A stretch of 64,000 nucleotides of DNA from a bacterium (GTDB taxonomy: Bacteria > Sysuimicrobiota > Sysuimicrobiia > Sysuimicrobiales > Segetimicrobiaceae). The notes under the pieces are model-generated. The model searched no databases, had not been told where the DNA came from, and worked only from the letters and a program-made list of their open reading frames with translations. The DNA is taken from positions 253,417 to 317,416 of the forward strand of contig DATGHU010000034.1 in NCBI GenBank assembly GCA_035307765.1, given 5' to 3'. The position numbers and the translations under genes are program-made. Of the stretch, positions 38,678 to 57,067 are shown in pieces. Positions within the stretch are counted from its first letter, which is position 1; the number at the start of each line of letters is the position of its first letter.

Positions 38678-39730
38678 CTATTCCACCACCACCGTGATCT
38701 CCCCCTCCCCCGGCGAGGTGATCTCGCCGACGACCGCCGGCTCCGAGATTCCCCCCGCGCGGAGCGCCCGAAGGAGGGCGTCGAGCCGCGCCGGGGGCAC
38801 GGCGATCAGGAGACCGCCGGACGTCTGCGCGTCGCAGAGGAGGATCTGGCCGTCCTCGTCGATCCCTTCCCAGGCCACCGCTCCCCCCAGCCCCGCGCGG
38901 TTCCGGAGGGTGCCCGCGGGGATCACCCGCGCCCGCGCCAACGCCCACGCCTCCTCGAGCACGGGCACGGCGCGGAGCCGGACGCGTGCCCGCACCGCGG
39001 CGGCGCGCGTCATCTCGTGCAGGTGACCGAGCAGCCCGAACCCCGTGACATCGGTCGCGGCGGAAACCCCCACGTCGATCATGGCCTGCGCCGCGGCCCG
39101 GTTGAGCGTGGCCATGATCCGAATCGCCTCGTCGATCGTCGCCCGCGACGTCCGCTGCTGTTTGATCCCGGTCGTGATGACCCCCATCCCCAAAGGCTTC
39201 GTGAGCACCAACCGGTCGCCGGGGCGGGCCGAGGCGTTCGTGACGATCCGGTCGGGGTGGATGGTCCCGGTCACCGCCAACCCGTACTTCGGCTCGGGAT
39301 CGTCGATCGTGTGGCCGCCGATGATCGCCACCCCGGCCTCGGCACACTTCTCCCCCCCTCCCCGCAGGATCTCCCCGAGAATCTCGAGCGGCAGCTTCGC
39401 CCGCGGAAACCCGGCGATGTTGAGCGCCAGGCGAGGCGTCCCCCCCATCGCGTAGATGTCGCTGAGCGCGTTCGCGGCGGCGATCGCCCCGAACCAGTAC
39501 GGCTCGTCGACGATGGGGGTGAAGAAATCCACGGTCTGCACGAGGGCCAGGTCGGGGGCAAGGCGGTACACCCCCGCGTCGTCCGCCGTGTTCGTGGCCA
39601 CGAGGACGGCAGGATCAGTTACCGGAGGAAGATGGCGCAGGACCTGCGCCAGGTCGGTCGGACTCAGTTTTGACGCTCAGCCGGCGCAGGCCACCATCGA
39701 GGTGAGCCGGATCCGGTCACGGTCATCCAT
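38678..39730 (-). CDS. selD: Selenophosphate synthetase SelD, itself a selenoprotein (UGA at codon 18)
   Basis: Makes selenophosphate from selenide and ATP, the selenium donor for selenocysteine tRNA. From ATG 39730 the frame reads through a TGA (39677-39679) in the active-site motif: VACAG-U-ASKLSP, where Sec or Cys is always found. Without recoding the gene would appear to start at the internal GTG near 39601 and lack its catalytic residue. Downstream: VQTVDFFTPIVDEPYWFGAI, ALSDIYAMGG (metal-binding Asp), GGHTIDDPEPKYGLAVTG and ATDVTGFGLLGHLHEM, all classic SelD. Total 350 aa. A hairpin after the UGA fits a bacterial SECIS. Implies the organism has SelA, SelB and tRNA-Sec, none of which is in this window. 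Confidence 0.93.
39641..39655 (-). promoter_or_regulatory. Candidate bacterial SECIS hairpin of selD
   Basis: On the minus strand GACCTG-GCG-CAGGTC forms a perfect 6-bp stem with a 3-base loop containing G, starting 21 nt after the UGA codon. This matches the place and size of the apical stem-loop that bacterial SelB recognises. It is inside the coding region. Confidence 0.65.
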
Positions 39731-41110: not shown

Positions 41111-41221
41111 CGGCGGGCGGCGGACCGCCTCCCCGCGGAGATCGTCGGGCCTTACCGCGAGGGGCAGACGCATCGGCGGCTGTCGCCCGGACGGATTTAT
41201 AGTAATATGGTGACAAGTTCG

Positions 41222-42175
41222 ATGGCGATCAACCTGCACCAGTTGAAGATCTTCCACACCGTTGCGCGGTCCGGGAGCTTCTCGCGCGCCGCCGCCGAAC
41301 TCTTGATCAGCCAGCCGTCGGTCAGCATCCAAGTGGGCGAGCTGGAGCGGCAGTTTGGGACGGACCTTTTTGCGCAGACAGGCAAGTCGGTGCGGCTGAC
41401 CGAGGCCGGCCGCGTCCTCGACGACTACGCCGCCCGGATCCTGTCGTTGATCGACGAGACCCGGGTGGCGGTGGACGAGGTGAAGGGACTGCGTCGCGGG
41501 CGCCTGCTGCTCGGGGCAACCCCCACCCCCGGCACCTACCTGCTCCCGACCCTCCTGGGGCGGTTCAAGGAACTGTATCCCAACATCGAGATTTCGCTGC
41601 GCATCACCGACACCCGCCGGATCCAGGAGATGCTCCTGCAACACCACCTCGATCTCGGGGTCGTTGGCGGTAAGGTCAGCTTCCCCGACATCGAGTCCTC
41701 GGTGTTCCTCACGGATACCCTGGTGCTCATCGCCTCCCCGCTGCACCGGTTCGCCTCGGTCCCGAGCGTGCGGGTTGCCGACCTCACCGGCGAGCCGTTC
41801 ATTCTTCGTGAGCGCGGTTCCGGAAACCGGGAGACCGTCGACGAGGCGCTCCACCGTGCCGGAGTGCACGTGACGCCGGTGTTCGAGCTCGAGGGCGCGG
41901 AGGTGGTCAAGCAGGCCGTCGCCGCGAACCTCGGCGTCTCGATCCTGTCGCGGTGCGCGGTCGAGCTCGAAGTCGCCGCCGGACGTCTGCGCATCGTGGC
42001 GGTCGACGGGCTGCGCGTGGAGCGGGCGTTCTCCCTGATCCACCGACGCGATCACGCACTCCCCCATGTGGCTCAGGCGTTCTTGGAAACGATCCGCCCG
42101 TCGGCGCCCGCCGGGGTGGCCGCCGCCGCCGAGGCCCCCTACGGGAGGCTGCCCCCCCCCTCTACCCCTGCCTAA
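41222..42175 (+). CDS. LysR-family transcriptional regulator
   Basis: N-terminal winged helix (LHQLKIFHTVARSGSFSRAA, then LISQPSVSIQVGELERQFGT) and C-terminal effector-binding domain (about 90-295), as in CysL/CbbR-type regulators. ATG 41222 preferred; ATG 41207 in frame is possible but lies almost on a TATAGT hexamer (41198-41203) that may be the -10 of its promoter. The serine operon follows on the same strand behind its own promoter, so there is no sign the regulator controls it. The last 25 residues are Pro/Ala-rich. Confidence 0.9.
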   Translation: MAINLHQLKIFHTVARSGSFSRAAAELLISQPSVSIQVGELERQFGTDLFAQTGKSVRLTEAGRVLDDYAARILSLIDETRVAVDEVKGLRRGRLLLGATPTPGTYLLPTLLGRFKELYPNIEISLRITDTRRIQEMLLQHHLDLGVVGGKVSFPDIESSVFLTDTLVLIASPLHRFASVPSVRVADLTGEPFILRERGSGNRETVDEALHRAGVHVTPVFELEGAEVVKQAVAANLGVSILSRCAVELEVAAGRLRIVAVDGLRVERAFSLIHRRDHALPHVAQAFLETIRPSAPAGVAAAAEAPYGRLPPPSTPA

Positions 42176-42241: not shown

Positions 42242-42270
42242 TTGACGCCTGCGGGAGCGGATGCTATCAT
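42242..42270 (+). promoter_or_regulatory. Sigma-70-type promoter of the serine operon
   Basis: TTGACG (42242-42247), 17-bp spacer, TATCAT (42265-42270). Transcription would start near 42277, just before the T-box leader. Confidence 0.75.
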
Positions 42271-42276
42271 CACCAC

Positions 42277-42530
42277 CAGTGCATCAGCTCGTCAGGTGAA
42301 GACGGAGACATCTCGGCCAGGGTCGCTCCCGTAGAGAGCCGGGTCTGGTGAAATCCGGCGGAGAGGTCCGGCCGAGTCCGCTCCCGAGCCGCAGCCGCAC
42401 GGCGAACGCCGCAAGGCTGCCGGGTCCGCCCGATACCGCGTTCGAGTACCAGGCTGTGTGGTCATTTGGCCTGGATGAGGAGTGGCACCGCGAGCGCTCT
42501 CGCCTCCTTAGTGGCGGGAGCGTTGCTATT
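42277..42530 (+). promoter_or_regulatory. T-box riboswitch, predicted tRNA-Ser specific
   Basis: Leader RNA that reads the charging state of a tRNA and controls readthrough. Stem I is short (ACGGAG...CTCCCGT about 42311-42341). It is followed by AGAGAG-CCGGGTCTGGTGAAA-TCCGGC, the conserved stem III region. The T-box itself is AGTGGCACCGCG (42481-42492) inside an antiterminator formed by GAGG (42477-42480) and CCTC (42503-42506). The tRNA-pairing sequence TGGC calls for a tRNA ending GCCA, i.e. discriminator G73, as in bacterial tRNA-Ser. Downstream genes (serA, serS) agree. The specifier codon in stem I was not located with certainty. Confidence 0.85.
42495..42522 (+). terminator. T-box terminator hairpin
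   Basis: Ten-base-pair stem (42495-42504 with 42513-42522, one T-G pair), 8-base loop, then TTGCTATTT. Its left arm contains CCTC, which also pairs in the antiterminator, so the two structures exclude each other. Confidence 0.75.
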
Positions 42531-42563: not shown

Positions 42564-43727
42564 ATGAGTGACATCAACCTGCTGATCCCCGGGCCGACCC
42601 CGCTCCCCCCCCGGGTGCTCCAGGCGATGGGGCAGCAGATGACCAACCACCGGGGCCCCACCTTTGGCCGGGTCATGGCGGAGATGCTTGCCGGCCTGAA
42701 GGACGTCTTCCAAACGCGCAACGACATCATCCCGCTCGTGTGTTCGGGAACCGGCGGGCTGGAGGCCGCGGCGGTCAACTTCATCGCGCCGGGTGACCGC
42801 GTGCTCTCGGTGAACAACGGGCACTTCTGCGAACGGTTCGCGGAGATCGCCGAGACCTTCGGCGCCCGCGTCGACCGGGTGCGCGCGGAGTGGGGCCGGC
42901 CCGTCCCCCTGGAGGCGATCGCCGCACAGATCCGGGCGGACGCCAACCGGGACTACCGCGCGGTGCTCGTCACGCAGAGCGAAACCAGCACCGGGGTGCA
43001 CAACGACATCAAAGCCATCCGCGACGCGCTGGGGGACCATCCGGCGCTCCTGATGGTGGACGCGGTGAGCAGCCTGGGGGCGATCCCCCTGGAGACGGAC
43101 GCGTGGCACGTCGATGTCGTCGTCACCGGCTCCCAAAAGGCGCTGATGAGCCCGCCGGGCATGGCGTTCCTCAGCGTGAGCGACCGGGCGTGGGCGGCCG
43201 CGGACCGCGCCCCGACCCCGCGGTTCTACCTCGACCTGCGCCGGGCGCGCACGGAGGTCCACAGGGCCCTGCCGAGCACGGCCTTCACCACCGCGGTGAC
43301 GGTGGCCTACGCCGTCCACGAAGCGCTGCGCCTGATCCACGAAGAAGGATTGGCGCACGTCTTCGAGCGGCACCGCCGGATCGCCCGGATGGTGCGGGCG
43401 GGCGTCCGCGGGATGGGGCTCCGCACCCTGGCCGATGACGCCTGGGCCGTGGACACGGTCACACCGACGTGCATGCCGGAGGGCATCGACGCCGTGGCGG
43501 TCGGCACCCGGGCACGCGAGGAGTACGGCGTCCTGCTGGGCCGGGGCATCGGGAATCTCGAACACACCATCGTACGGATCGGCCACCTCGGGTATACCCT
43601 GCCCGAGATGCTGCTGTCGGGCCTAGACGTGCTCGGACGGACCCTGAACGATCTGGGGCACCGCGTCCCCACCGACAAAGGACTGGCGGCGGCGCGCCAG
43701 ACGCTCGAGACCGCCGCGCGGCGCTAG
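42564..43727 (+). CDS. Serine-pyruvate/alanine-glyoxylate-type class V aminotransferase
   Basis: PLP enzyme, 387 aa, probably the transaminase step of serine synthesis in this operon. LLIPGPTPLPPRVLQAMGQQ is the family's start, LVCSGTGGLEAAAVNF the cofactor phosphate site, MVDAVSSLGAIPLETD carries the ring Asp and VVTGSQKALMSPPGMAFLSV the Schiff-base Lys. ATG 42564 is 8 bp after AGGAGG; the upstream open frame is the T-box leader. A classical serC is not seen here, and in some bacteria this family replaces it. It could also act on glyoxylate or on hydrogenase-like substrates as annotated in other genomes. Confidence 0.88.
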   Translation: MSDINLLIPGPTPLPPRVLQAMGQQMTNHRGPTFGRVMAEMLAGLKDVFQTRNDIIPLVCSGTGGLEAAAVNFIAPGDRVLSVNNGHFCERFAEIAETFGARVDRVRAEWGRPVPLEAIAAQIRADANRDYRAVLVTQSETSTGVHNDIKAIRDALGDHPALLMVDAVSSLGAIPLETDAWHVDVVVTGSQKALMSPPGMAFLSVSDRAWAAADRAPTPRFYLDLRRARTEVHRALPSTAFTTAVTVAYAVHEALRLIHEEGLAHVFERHRRIARMVRAGVRGMGLRTLADDAWAVDTVTPTCMPEGIDAVAVGTRAREEYGVLLGRGIGNLEHTIVRIGHLGYTLPEMLLSGLDVLGRTLNDLGHRVPTDKGLAAARQTLETAARR

Positions 43728-43741
43728 GTGGCGGACCCGCA

Positions 43742-45319
43742 ATGCGCATCTTGGTCGCCGACGGACTGGCCGAGGAGGGTCTCGCCCGGCTGCGCGAGTC
43801 CGGCGACCTCTTGATCCGATCGGGCCTGAGCGAGGACGAGCTCGCGGGAGAGCTCCCCGGCGTGGAGGCGCTGATCGTCCGAAGCCGGACCCGGGTGTCC
43901 GCGGAGGCCGTAAAGCAGGCGACCTCCCTCCGGGTGATCGCGCGCGCGGGGGTCGGGGTCGACAACATCGACGTCGCGGCGGCCACGCGGCAGGGGATCC
44001 TCGTCCTCAACACCCCGGAGAGCAGCACGATCGCGGCGGCCGAGCACACGCTCGCCATGCTGTTGTCCCTGGTCCGGCGGATCCCGCAGGCCCAGGCGGC
44101 CCTTGTCGCGGGCCGGTGGACGCGTGAGAAATTCATCGGCTCCGAACTGTTCGGGAAGACCCTGGGCGTGGTCGGGCTCGGCAAGATCGGCGGCGAGGTC
44201 GCGCGCCGGGCCGCAGCCTTCGGCATGCGGGTGCTCGCCTACGACCCCTACGTCACCGAGGAGCGCGCGCGCCGCCTGGGGGTCGAGCTGAGCGCGTGGG
44301 AAGAGGTGCTGGACCAAGCCGACGTCCTCACGCTCCACGTCCCTCTGGCCCAGGATACCAAGGCCCTGATCGGCCGAACGGAAATGGCGGCGATGAAGCC
44401 GGGGGCGCTCCTCGTCAACTGCGCCCGCGGCGGCCTGATCGACGAAGCGGCGCTGCTGGCCGCGCTGGAGGAAGGCCGGGTGGGGGGCGCCGCGCTCGAT
44501 GTGTTTGCGCACGAGCCCCCGCCGGACGGTTATCCGCTGCTTGCCCACCCGCGCGTCGTGGTCACCCCCCACCTCGGCGGATCCACACTCGAGGCGCAGC
44601 GGACCATCGCCGTCGACATCGCCGACCAGGTCCTCGCCGCCCTGCGCGGCGATCCGGTACACGGAGCCGTTAACGCGCCGGCGCTGGGGGAGGACACCTG
44701 GCGCCGCCTCGACCCCTTCATGCACTTGGCGCGGCGGCTCGGGGAACTCACCCAACAGGTCGCGGCCAAGCCCCTCAGCGCGATCGCGATGTCCTATGAG
44801 GGCGAGGTGGCGCGGATGGACACGCCGCCGCTGACCGCGTCGTACCTCACGGGCCTGCTGCACCGCGCCTCCGACCAGACGGTGAACCTGGTCAACGCCG
44901 TGGTCATCGCCAAGGAACGGGGGCTGGCGATCAGCGAAACCCGGACCGACCTCTGCGATGACTTCACCAGCCAGATCGTCGTCGACGCCCAGACCTCCGA
45001 CGGGGCGCTGCGCCTCGGCGGGACGCTCTTCGGACACCGGGAGGCGCGCATCACCCGGCTGAACCGATGGCGGCTCGATCTGGTGCCGGCCGACCACATG
45101 CTCTTCGTGTGGAACGAGGACCGTCCGGGGATGATCGGCGCGGTCGGAACGATCCTCGGCCGGCACTCGGTGAACATCGCCAACATGCACGTGGGACGGA
45201 GGGACGCCGGGGGCACCGCGCTCATGGTGCTCACCCTCGACGCGCCGGCTCCCCAGGCGGTCCTGGGCGAGATTCAAGGAGCGGGCGGCATCTCCCGGGT
45301 GAAGGCGGTGCAACTCTAG
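43742..45319 (+). CDS. serA: D-3-phosphoglycerate dehydrogenase (long form with ASB and ACT domains)
   Basis: First enzyme of serine synthesis. 525 aa. Rossmann loop GVVGLGKIGGEVARR (about 147-161), catalytic Arg in NCARGGLIDEAAL, Glu in LDVFAHEPP and His in VVTPHLGGSTLEAQ. The C-terminal part carries an allosteric substrate-binding region (about 320-450) and an ACT domain (MLFVWNEDRPGMIGAVGTIL) for feedback by serine. ATG 43742 lies 14 bp after the previous stop. Expression is under the T-box leader. Confidence 0.95.
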   Translation: MRILVADGLAEEGLARLRESGDLLIRSGLSEDELAGELPGVEALIVRSRTRVSAEAVKQATSLRVIARAGVGVDNIDVAAATRQGILVLNTPESSTIAAAEHTLAMLLSLVRRIPQAQAALVAGRWTREKFIGSELFGKTLGVVGLGKIGGEVARRAAAFGMRVLAYDPYVTEERARRLGVELSAWEEVLDQADVLTLHVPLAQDTKALIGRTEMAAMKPGALLVNCARGGLIDEAALLAALEEGRVGGAALDVFAHEPPPDGYPLLAHPRVVVTPHLGGSTLEAQRTIAVDIADQVLAALRGDPVHGAVNAPALGEDTWRRLDPFMHLARRLGELTQQVAAKPLSAIAMSYEGEVARMDTPPLTASYLTGLLHRASDQTVNLVNAVVIAKERGLAISETRTDLCDDFTSQIVVDAQTSDGALRLGGTLFGHREARITRLNRWRLDLVPADHMLFVWNEDRPGMIGAVGTILGRHSVNIANMHVGRRDAGGTALMVLTLDAPAPQAVLGEIQGAGGISRVKAVQL

Positions 45320-45354: not shown

Positions 45355-46644
45355 ATGGTGGACCTGAAACTGATTCGCGAGCAGCCCGACCTGTTCCGGG
45401 CCGGGCTGCGCAAGAAGGGCGCGGCGCCCGGCCTCGTGGATCGGGCGCTGGACGCCGACCGACGCCGCCGCGAGCTCGTCCAGCAGGTGGAGGCGCTGCG
45501 GGCCGCCCAAAACCGGGCCTCGCAGGAGATCCCCAAACTCGCGGGGGTCGCGCGTGGTGAGCGAATCGACGAGATGAAGCAGATCGCCGCGCAGGTCAGA
45601 GCGCAGGAACCGCTCCTCCAGGAGGCCGAGGCCGCGCTCCAAGCGGTGCTGCTCCAGATCCCAAACCTCCCCCACCCCTCGGTCCCGGAGGGAGGCCCGG
45701 ACGACAGCGTCACCCTCCGGGTGGTCGGGGCCCCCCCGGAGTTTGATTTCAAGGCGCGGGACCACGTAGAACTCGGCACGGCCCTGGGTCTCCTCGACAT
45801 CGAGCGCGGCGCCAGAGTCTCGGGATCGCGGTCCTACTTTCTGCGGCACGACGGCGCGCTGCTTCACCTCGCCCTCCTCCGGTTCGCGGTCGATCGGTTG
45901 GTGACCGAGGGGTTTACGCCGGTCATCCCCCCGGTGCTGATCCGCCGAGAGAACATGATCGGCCTGATGGGGGGCGCCTCCCTCGACGAGCAGATGGTCT
46001 ACCGGATCGAGGGGGAGGATCTCGCGCTCGCGGGGACCTCGGAAATGGCGCTGGGATCGATGCTGGGCGGAGAGGTGCTGAGCGAAGCCGACCTGCCGAT
46101 CCGGTTCTGCGGGATCTCCACCTGCTTCCGCCGCGAAGCCGGCGCGCACGGGAGGGACACCCGGGGGATCTTCCGCGTTCATCAGTTCGACAAGGTGGAG
46201 ATGTTCTCGTACTGTCATCCCGAGCGGTCGTGGGAAGAGCACGAGTACCTCGTCGACGTGCAGGAGCGACTCTGGCAGACGCTCGGGCTCCCCTACCGCG
46301 TCGTCAATATTGCCGGCGGCGACCTCGGGGATCCCGCCGCCCGCAAGTACGACATCGAGACCTGGATGCCCGGCCGCGGCGCGTTCGGCGAGACGCAGTC
46401 GTGCAGCAACTGCACGGATTTTCAGGCGCGCCGCCTCAACGTCCGGTTCCGCAGGCGGGAGGGGGGCGGGGTCGACTTCGTGCACACCCTCAACGGGACG
46501 GCGGTGGCGAGCACACGGGCGATTGTCGCGATCATCGAGAACTTCCAGCAGCGCGACGGCAGTATCCGCGTTCCCCCCCCGATCGTCCCCTACATGGGCG
46601 GGCGGACCGTACTGCAGCCTCCCGCCGCAAAGGCGGCGCGGTAG
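45355..46644 (+). CDS. serS: Seryl-tRNA synthetase
   Basis: Charges tRNA-Ser. 429 aa. The N-terminal coiled-coil arm (about 1-105; VQQVEALRAAQNRASQEIPK) binds tRNA. Class II motif 2 FRREAGAHGRDTRGIFRVHQ and motif 3 NGTAVASTRAIVAIIENFQQ are intact. ATG 45355 with GGAG just upstream. A synthetase under a T-box of the same specificity is typical Gram-positive logic: low charged tRNA-Ser raises both serine synthesis and charging. Confidence 0.96.
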   Translation: MVDLKLIREQPDLFRAGLRKKGAAPGLVDRALDADRRRRELVQQVEALRAAQNRASQEIPKLAGVARGERIDEMKQIAAQVRAQEPLLQEAEAALQAVLLQIPNLPHPSVPEGGPDDSVTLRVVGAPPEFDFKARDHVELGTALGLLDIERGARVSGSRSYFLRHDGALLHLALLRFAVDRLVTEGFTPVIPPVLIRRENMIGLMGGASLDEQMVYRIEGEDLALAGTSEMALGSMLGGEVLSEADLPIRFCGISTCFRREAGAHGRDTRGIFRVHQFDKVEMFSYCHPERSWEEHEYLVDVQERLWQTLGLPYRVVNIAGGDLGDPAARKYDIETWMPGRGAFGETQSCSNCTDFQARRLNVRFRRREGGGVDFVHTLNGTAVASTRAIVAIIENFQQRDGSIRVPPPIVPYMGGRTVLQPPAAKAAR

Positions 46645-56799: not shown

Positions 56800-57067
56800 G
56801 GCCGTGCACCCGCCGTCGACAGCACACTCCAGACGGTCCCCACGTAGCCAGCTCCGACCAGGTGATCCCGCGGCACACGAGACGCCTTACGTACCGTTGC
56901 TTCCTTCCGGACCTGGCGGGGTTGGTAAGATCTCGTTGCGCGGGACCCGGCCCTCCTTGCCGCTTGCGCGGGCCTGGCCCTGAAGCGTGAGGCCTCGGGC
57001 GGGAATTCAGCCCCGCTGTAGCGGGTTGCGGGTACAGGGAACCGCTAGCTCCCCGCCTAGCACGGCC
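56800..57067 (-). ncRNA. ffs: Signal recognition particle RNA, large bacterial (Alu-containing) type
   Basis: Domain IV hairpin contains CAGGTCCGGAAGGAAGCAA, the highly conserved Ffh-binding sequence. Its 5' domain GCTAGGCGGGGAGCTAGCGG and AGCGGGGCTGAATTCCCGCC is the Alu-type fold seen in Bacillus and Thermus. The 5' end GGCCGTGC (57060-57067) pairs with the 3' end GCACGGCC (56800-56807), giving helix 1 and a length of about 268 nt. Ends may be off by a few bases. Confidence 0.93.

Follow-up and report, generated by a model that had tools for sequence, protein, structure and literature searches.

In the window, by which we mean the whole 64,000-nucleotide stretch analysed here, a class I (terminator-type) T-box specific for tRNA-Ser(GGA) very probably controls an aminotransferase-serA-serS operon, so that in this uncultured soil lineage the serine operon would be subject to T-box control. 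The host has its relatives in the Segetimicrobiaceae (phylum Sysuimicrobiota), and the closest records that carry a name are those of Candidatus Segetimicrobium genomatis and kin. This reading is based on the anatomy and conservation of the leader, on covariation in its antiterminator and on a matching tRNA in the genome. A Ser T-box is an ordinary, known kind of RNA switch; it is new for this poorly studied soil phylum, and a literature search found no T-box report for Sysuimicrobiota. The features, all on the + strand, are as follows:

42242..42270, promoter TTGACG-17-TATCAT with TG before the -10 element (from sequence; also in relatives)
42290..42510, T-box leader (RF00230, model positions 1-219 complete)
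about 42295..42390, stem I, from 5' GGTGAAGACGGAG to CTCCCGAGC (RF00230 match, alignment, RNAalifold)
42304-42307 / 42381-42384, stem I lower helix GGAG / CUCC
42333..42354, distal stem I with the tRNA-elbow motif, AGAGA bulge and GGUGAAA loop (sequence, RF00230)
42377..42379, putative Ser specifier UCC, separated from the lower helix by one base (spacing rule; UCC in 21/21 intact leaders of orthologues)
42391..42420, stem II hairpin (folding)
42421..42434, stem IIA hairpin with an F-box-like CCGAUA, consensus CCGUUA (RF00230, folding)
42449..42474, stem III (RF00230, folding)
42478..42508, antiterminator AGGAG-[UGGCACC]-GCGAG-CGCU-CUCGC-CUCCU (folding, covariation)
42493..42524, competing 12-bp terminator, then a weak U tract (folding)
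42564..43727, class-V aminotransferase, probable serine-pathway transaminase (PF00266; adjoins serA in most relatives)
43742..45319, serA, D-3-phosphoglycerate dehydrogenase, ACT-domain form (TIGR01327, 641 bits)
45355..46644, serS, seryl-tRNA synthetase (TIGR00414, 454 bits)

An earlier note, made from the letters of the DNA, had described a T-box with this promoter, an AGAGAG...GGTGAAA block, the T-box sequence, a GAGG/CCTC antiterminator and a competing terminator in the right order ahead of aminotransferase, serA and serS. Every named part was found in that order, and the profile matches downstream bear out the three genes; the terminator stem, given there as 10 bp, has 12. The T-box call also holds at the level of the covariance model: RF00230 matches 42290-42510 over its full length with 61.3 bits (E 4.6e-13, by E-value threshold), the sole match of the region, and in a search of the whole 3.8-Mb genome the window match (E 9.9e-13) is among six strong T-box matches. 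The score is below the RF00230 gathering cut-off of 93 bits, which is reached by few matches in the host class and missed in most matching named control genomes, including T-boxes of some other phyla. With curated Rfam thresholds, only SRP RNA and tRNA are reported across the whole window, the former being a bacterial large SRP RNA at 56802-57065 (minus strand, 197.9 bits). No promoter-like site besides TTGACG-17-TATCAT occurs in 600 bases (shuffles expect 0.1), and intact leaders of the same family share this promoter together with the TG before its -10 element.

Stem I is about 95 nt long, includes the AG bulge and the distal loop, and spans the complete model stem I in the RF00230 alignment. 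AGAGAG starts at 42333 and GGTGAAA at 42347, and the cores of the AGAGA and GGUGAAA motifs do not vary across 16 aligned leaders. In addition to the F-box-like sequence, the leader deviates from the consensus in its specifier loop, which is without AGUA, and around stem III, where it has GAGUA and AU versus RRRNG and AA. Covariation was assessed for the antiterminator and, by RNAalifold, for stem I, the middle helix of which aligned poorly. The RNAalifold structure contains no more than 12 pairs of stem I, which are mostly invariant and show little covariation; stem I is therefore conserved, yet covariation tells little about it.

The antiterminator shows clear compensatory changes. Across the alignment 93.6% of cells are paired and 21 cells are changed on both sides, and the covariation score of 0.342 compares with 0.162 for shuffles and at most 0.140 for slid alignments, none of 500 shuffles scoring as high; two of five summary measures, pairs with both-side change and further pair types, were not above shuffles. 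The bulge UGGCACC of the T-box AGTGGCACCGCG lies at 42483-42489. Terminator and antiterminator are mutually exclusive and both use CUCUCGCC; the computed energies are -23.4 kcal/mol for the terminator versus -10.7 kcal/mol for the antiterminator, as expected if antiterminator formation needs tRNA.

These structures agree with the earlier claim that the leader would regulate by termination. The U tract 3' of the terminator is weak (GUUGCUAUUU) and the lineage is high in GC, both of which could be taken to favor mainly translational regulation like that of the compact actinobacterial T-boxes. We consider this very unlikely because the ribosome-binding site (AGGAGG, 42550) is outside the hairpins, about 25 bases beyond the terminator stem. 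Moreover, a strong U run follows the terminator in many relatives, and stem I is of full length. On this last point the earlier note does not stand: it had called stem I unusually short and actinobacteria-like. The distal tRNA-elbow motif is absent from stem I of the compact actinobacterial T-boxes (PMC7583486), whereas the window leader carries it complete, so that the likeness fails and termination is the expected mode.

T-boxes are general in the host class, being present in all 43 genomes searched. Orthologues of the aminotransferase (E <= 1e-90) occur in 32 of these, followed by serA in most relatives and directly by serS in some, and an intact Ser T-box precedes the orthologue in 21 genomes from four families, every one with UCC and UGGC. 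Examples of aminotransferase leaders that lack a T-box come from family f4 and from a single genome of a second family. In addition, three genomes of the host's family, all metagenome assemblies, have through what appear to be two separate events leaders that retain promoter and terminator without the tRNA-sensing part:

L009 3870-3960 and L010 3870-3960 (genomes G008 and G009), truncated leaders
L074 (genome G002), truncated leader upstream of the aminotransferase

In G008 and G009 the promoter, the terminator and the first 30 or so bases survive. The segment corresponding to about 42312-42487 of the window is missing, which takes away almost the whole of stem I, both stem II and stem III, and UGGCA from the bulge. 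From the residual sequence one can still draw GGAG-AGAUCC-GCGAG-CGCU-CUCGC-CUCC as an alternative to the terminator. Their aminotransferases are 99% identical; thus the two represent one lineage, and the junction shared by two assemblies argues for a real event in it, whereas G002 stands alone. In G002, which belongs to another genus, the loss appears independent of that in G008/G009: it removed stem I, stem II and the greater part of stem III and left UGGCACC, A2 and the terminator in place. No other UGGC T-boxes were found in the three genomes, in which the remaining T-boxes persist. Specifier deletions engineered in Paenibacillus polymyxa, with or without the T-box, left the terminator in place and held serA expression continuously at a low level (PMC8002221), and by analogy the natural deletions may lead to low constitutive expression. 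With the sensing part apparently lost more than once, these relatives offer a natural parallel to such engineered T-box deletions. It seems rather doubtful that the truncated leaders, with their antiterminator-like helix and terminator, work as fixed attenuators, or else as minimal elements that read only the tRNA acceptor end. That close relatives have lost the sensing part, and that the window copy departs from some consensus positions, might suggest a decayed, non-functional remnant in the window as well. This is highly improbable: the 61.3 bits of the window copy are within or above the range of intact relatives (37-63 bits), and its antiterminator, terminator, specifier and UGGC are all intact.

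The specificity of the leader was read by the usual spacing rule, in which the three specifier bases come first and one base separates them from the lower helix (compare TBDB, PMC7778990). The earlier note had left the Ser specifier codon to be located in stem I, and the rule finds it as UCC, which matches tRNA-Ser(GGA) of the host and fits the serA and serS downstream. Three tRNA-Ser genes were found in the genome (GGA, UGA and CGA); tRNA-Ser(GCU) was not found there. All three have discriminator G, as anticipated by the earlier claim that TGGC selects discriminator-G tRNAs such as tRNA-Ser, and this G73 pairs with the C of UGGC. UGGC thus suits Ser, whereas the tRNA-Pro of the genome, having discriminator A, does not match it. 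AGU was also considered as a Ser specifier and rejected: it is present only where AG precedes UCC (the window, L072 and L073), is absent in other relatives, and would call for the tRNA-Ser(GCU) that the genome search did not find. It is exceedingly improbable that the specifier is shifted one base later (CCG, CCC or CCA) and that the leader senses tRNA-Pro: the base after UCC does complete a Pro codon, and in several families GAA immediately precedes UCC, at the place where other T-boxes of the host genome have GAA-N-specifier, but the discriminator A of tRNA-Pro would not pair with UGGC, the proC T-box of the genome has UGGU, the one-base spacing to the lower helix yields UCC, and the genes downstream are serine genes.

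Reading the leader as a tRNA-Ser(GGA) T-box, we infer that it binds tRNA, terminates transcription and responds to serine. When serine is short, the anticodon GGA of uncharged tRNA-Ser would pair with the specifier UCC and its GCCA end with UGGC in the antiterminator bulge. The bound tRNA would hold the antiterminator, and RNA polymerase would continue into the operon. Charged tRNA would be unable to pair in this manner, so that the more stable terminator would form and transcription would stop.

Seven further T-boxes were observed in the host genome (L001, L002, L004-L008), with specifiers that fit their downstream genes. Applied by eye, the spacing rule gives Thr ACC for thrS, Leu CUC for ilvB, Pro CCC for proC, Val GUC for valS, Trp UGG for a DAHP synthase gene, Phe UUC for pheS and Met AUG for metG, the gene names coming from reading of translations and not from profile search. 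UGGC is unique to the window leader among the T-boxes examined in the genome. The pheS T-box has UGGG although tRNA-Phe has A73, a mismatch, and UGGG T-boxes also occur in G008, G009 and G011. Elsewhere in the window, the SelD frame (TIGR00476; 38681-39680, minus strand) can be followed further upstream across an in-frame TGA (39677-39679), within the motif CAG-U-ASKLSP. Because this TGA sits at the catalytic Cys/Sec position, SelD is probably a selenoprotein. Nearby, 41219-42172 encodes a LysR regulator with a match to NF040786, the LysR family of selenium metabolism.

Outside Firmicutes, T-boxes have been described in Actinobacteria, Chloroflexi, Deinococcus and a few Proteobacteria (PMC2494555), and Ser T-boxes are known on serA, serC and serS (PMC8002221). 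The window leader resembles class I T-boxes of RF00230 in its stem I with AG bulge and distal loop, its stems II, IIA/B and III, its UGGN bulge, antiterminator and terminator, and differs in being GC-rich, scoring below the Rfam cut-off, lacking AGUA in the specifier loop and having a weak U tract. UCC-type Ser T-boxes on serC are cited for Clostridium thermocellum and Desulfitobacterium hafniense (in PMC8002221); as far as that description goes, they share with the window leader the UCC specifier and a serine biosynthesis gene, and they belong to another phylum than the window host. For the Ser T-box of serA in P. polymyxa WLY78, antitermination was shown by mutation (PMC8002221). The window leader is predicted to be like it in tRNA-Ser sensing, serA control and antitermination. 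The P. polymyxa leader, however, uses AGC and UGGU, whereas the window leader has UCC and UGGC, and serA lies apart from serC in P. polymyxa, whereas the window unites serA, the aminotransferase gene and serS in one operon.
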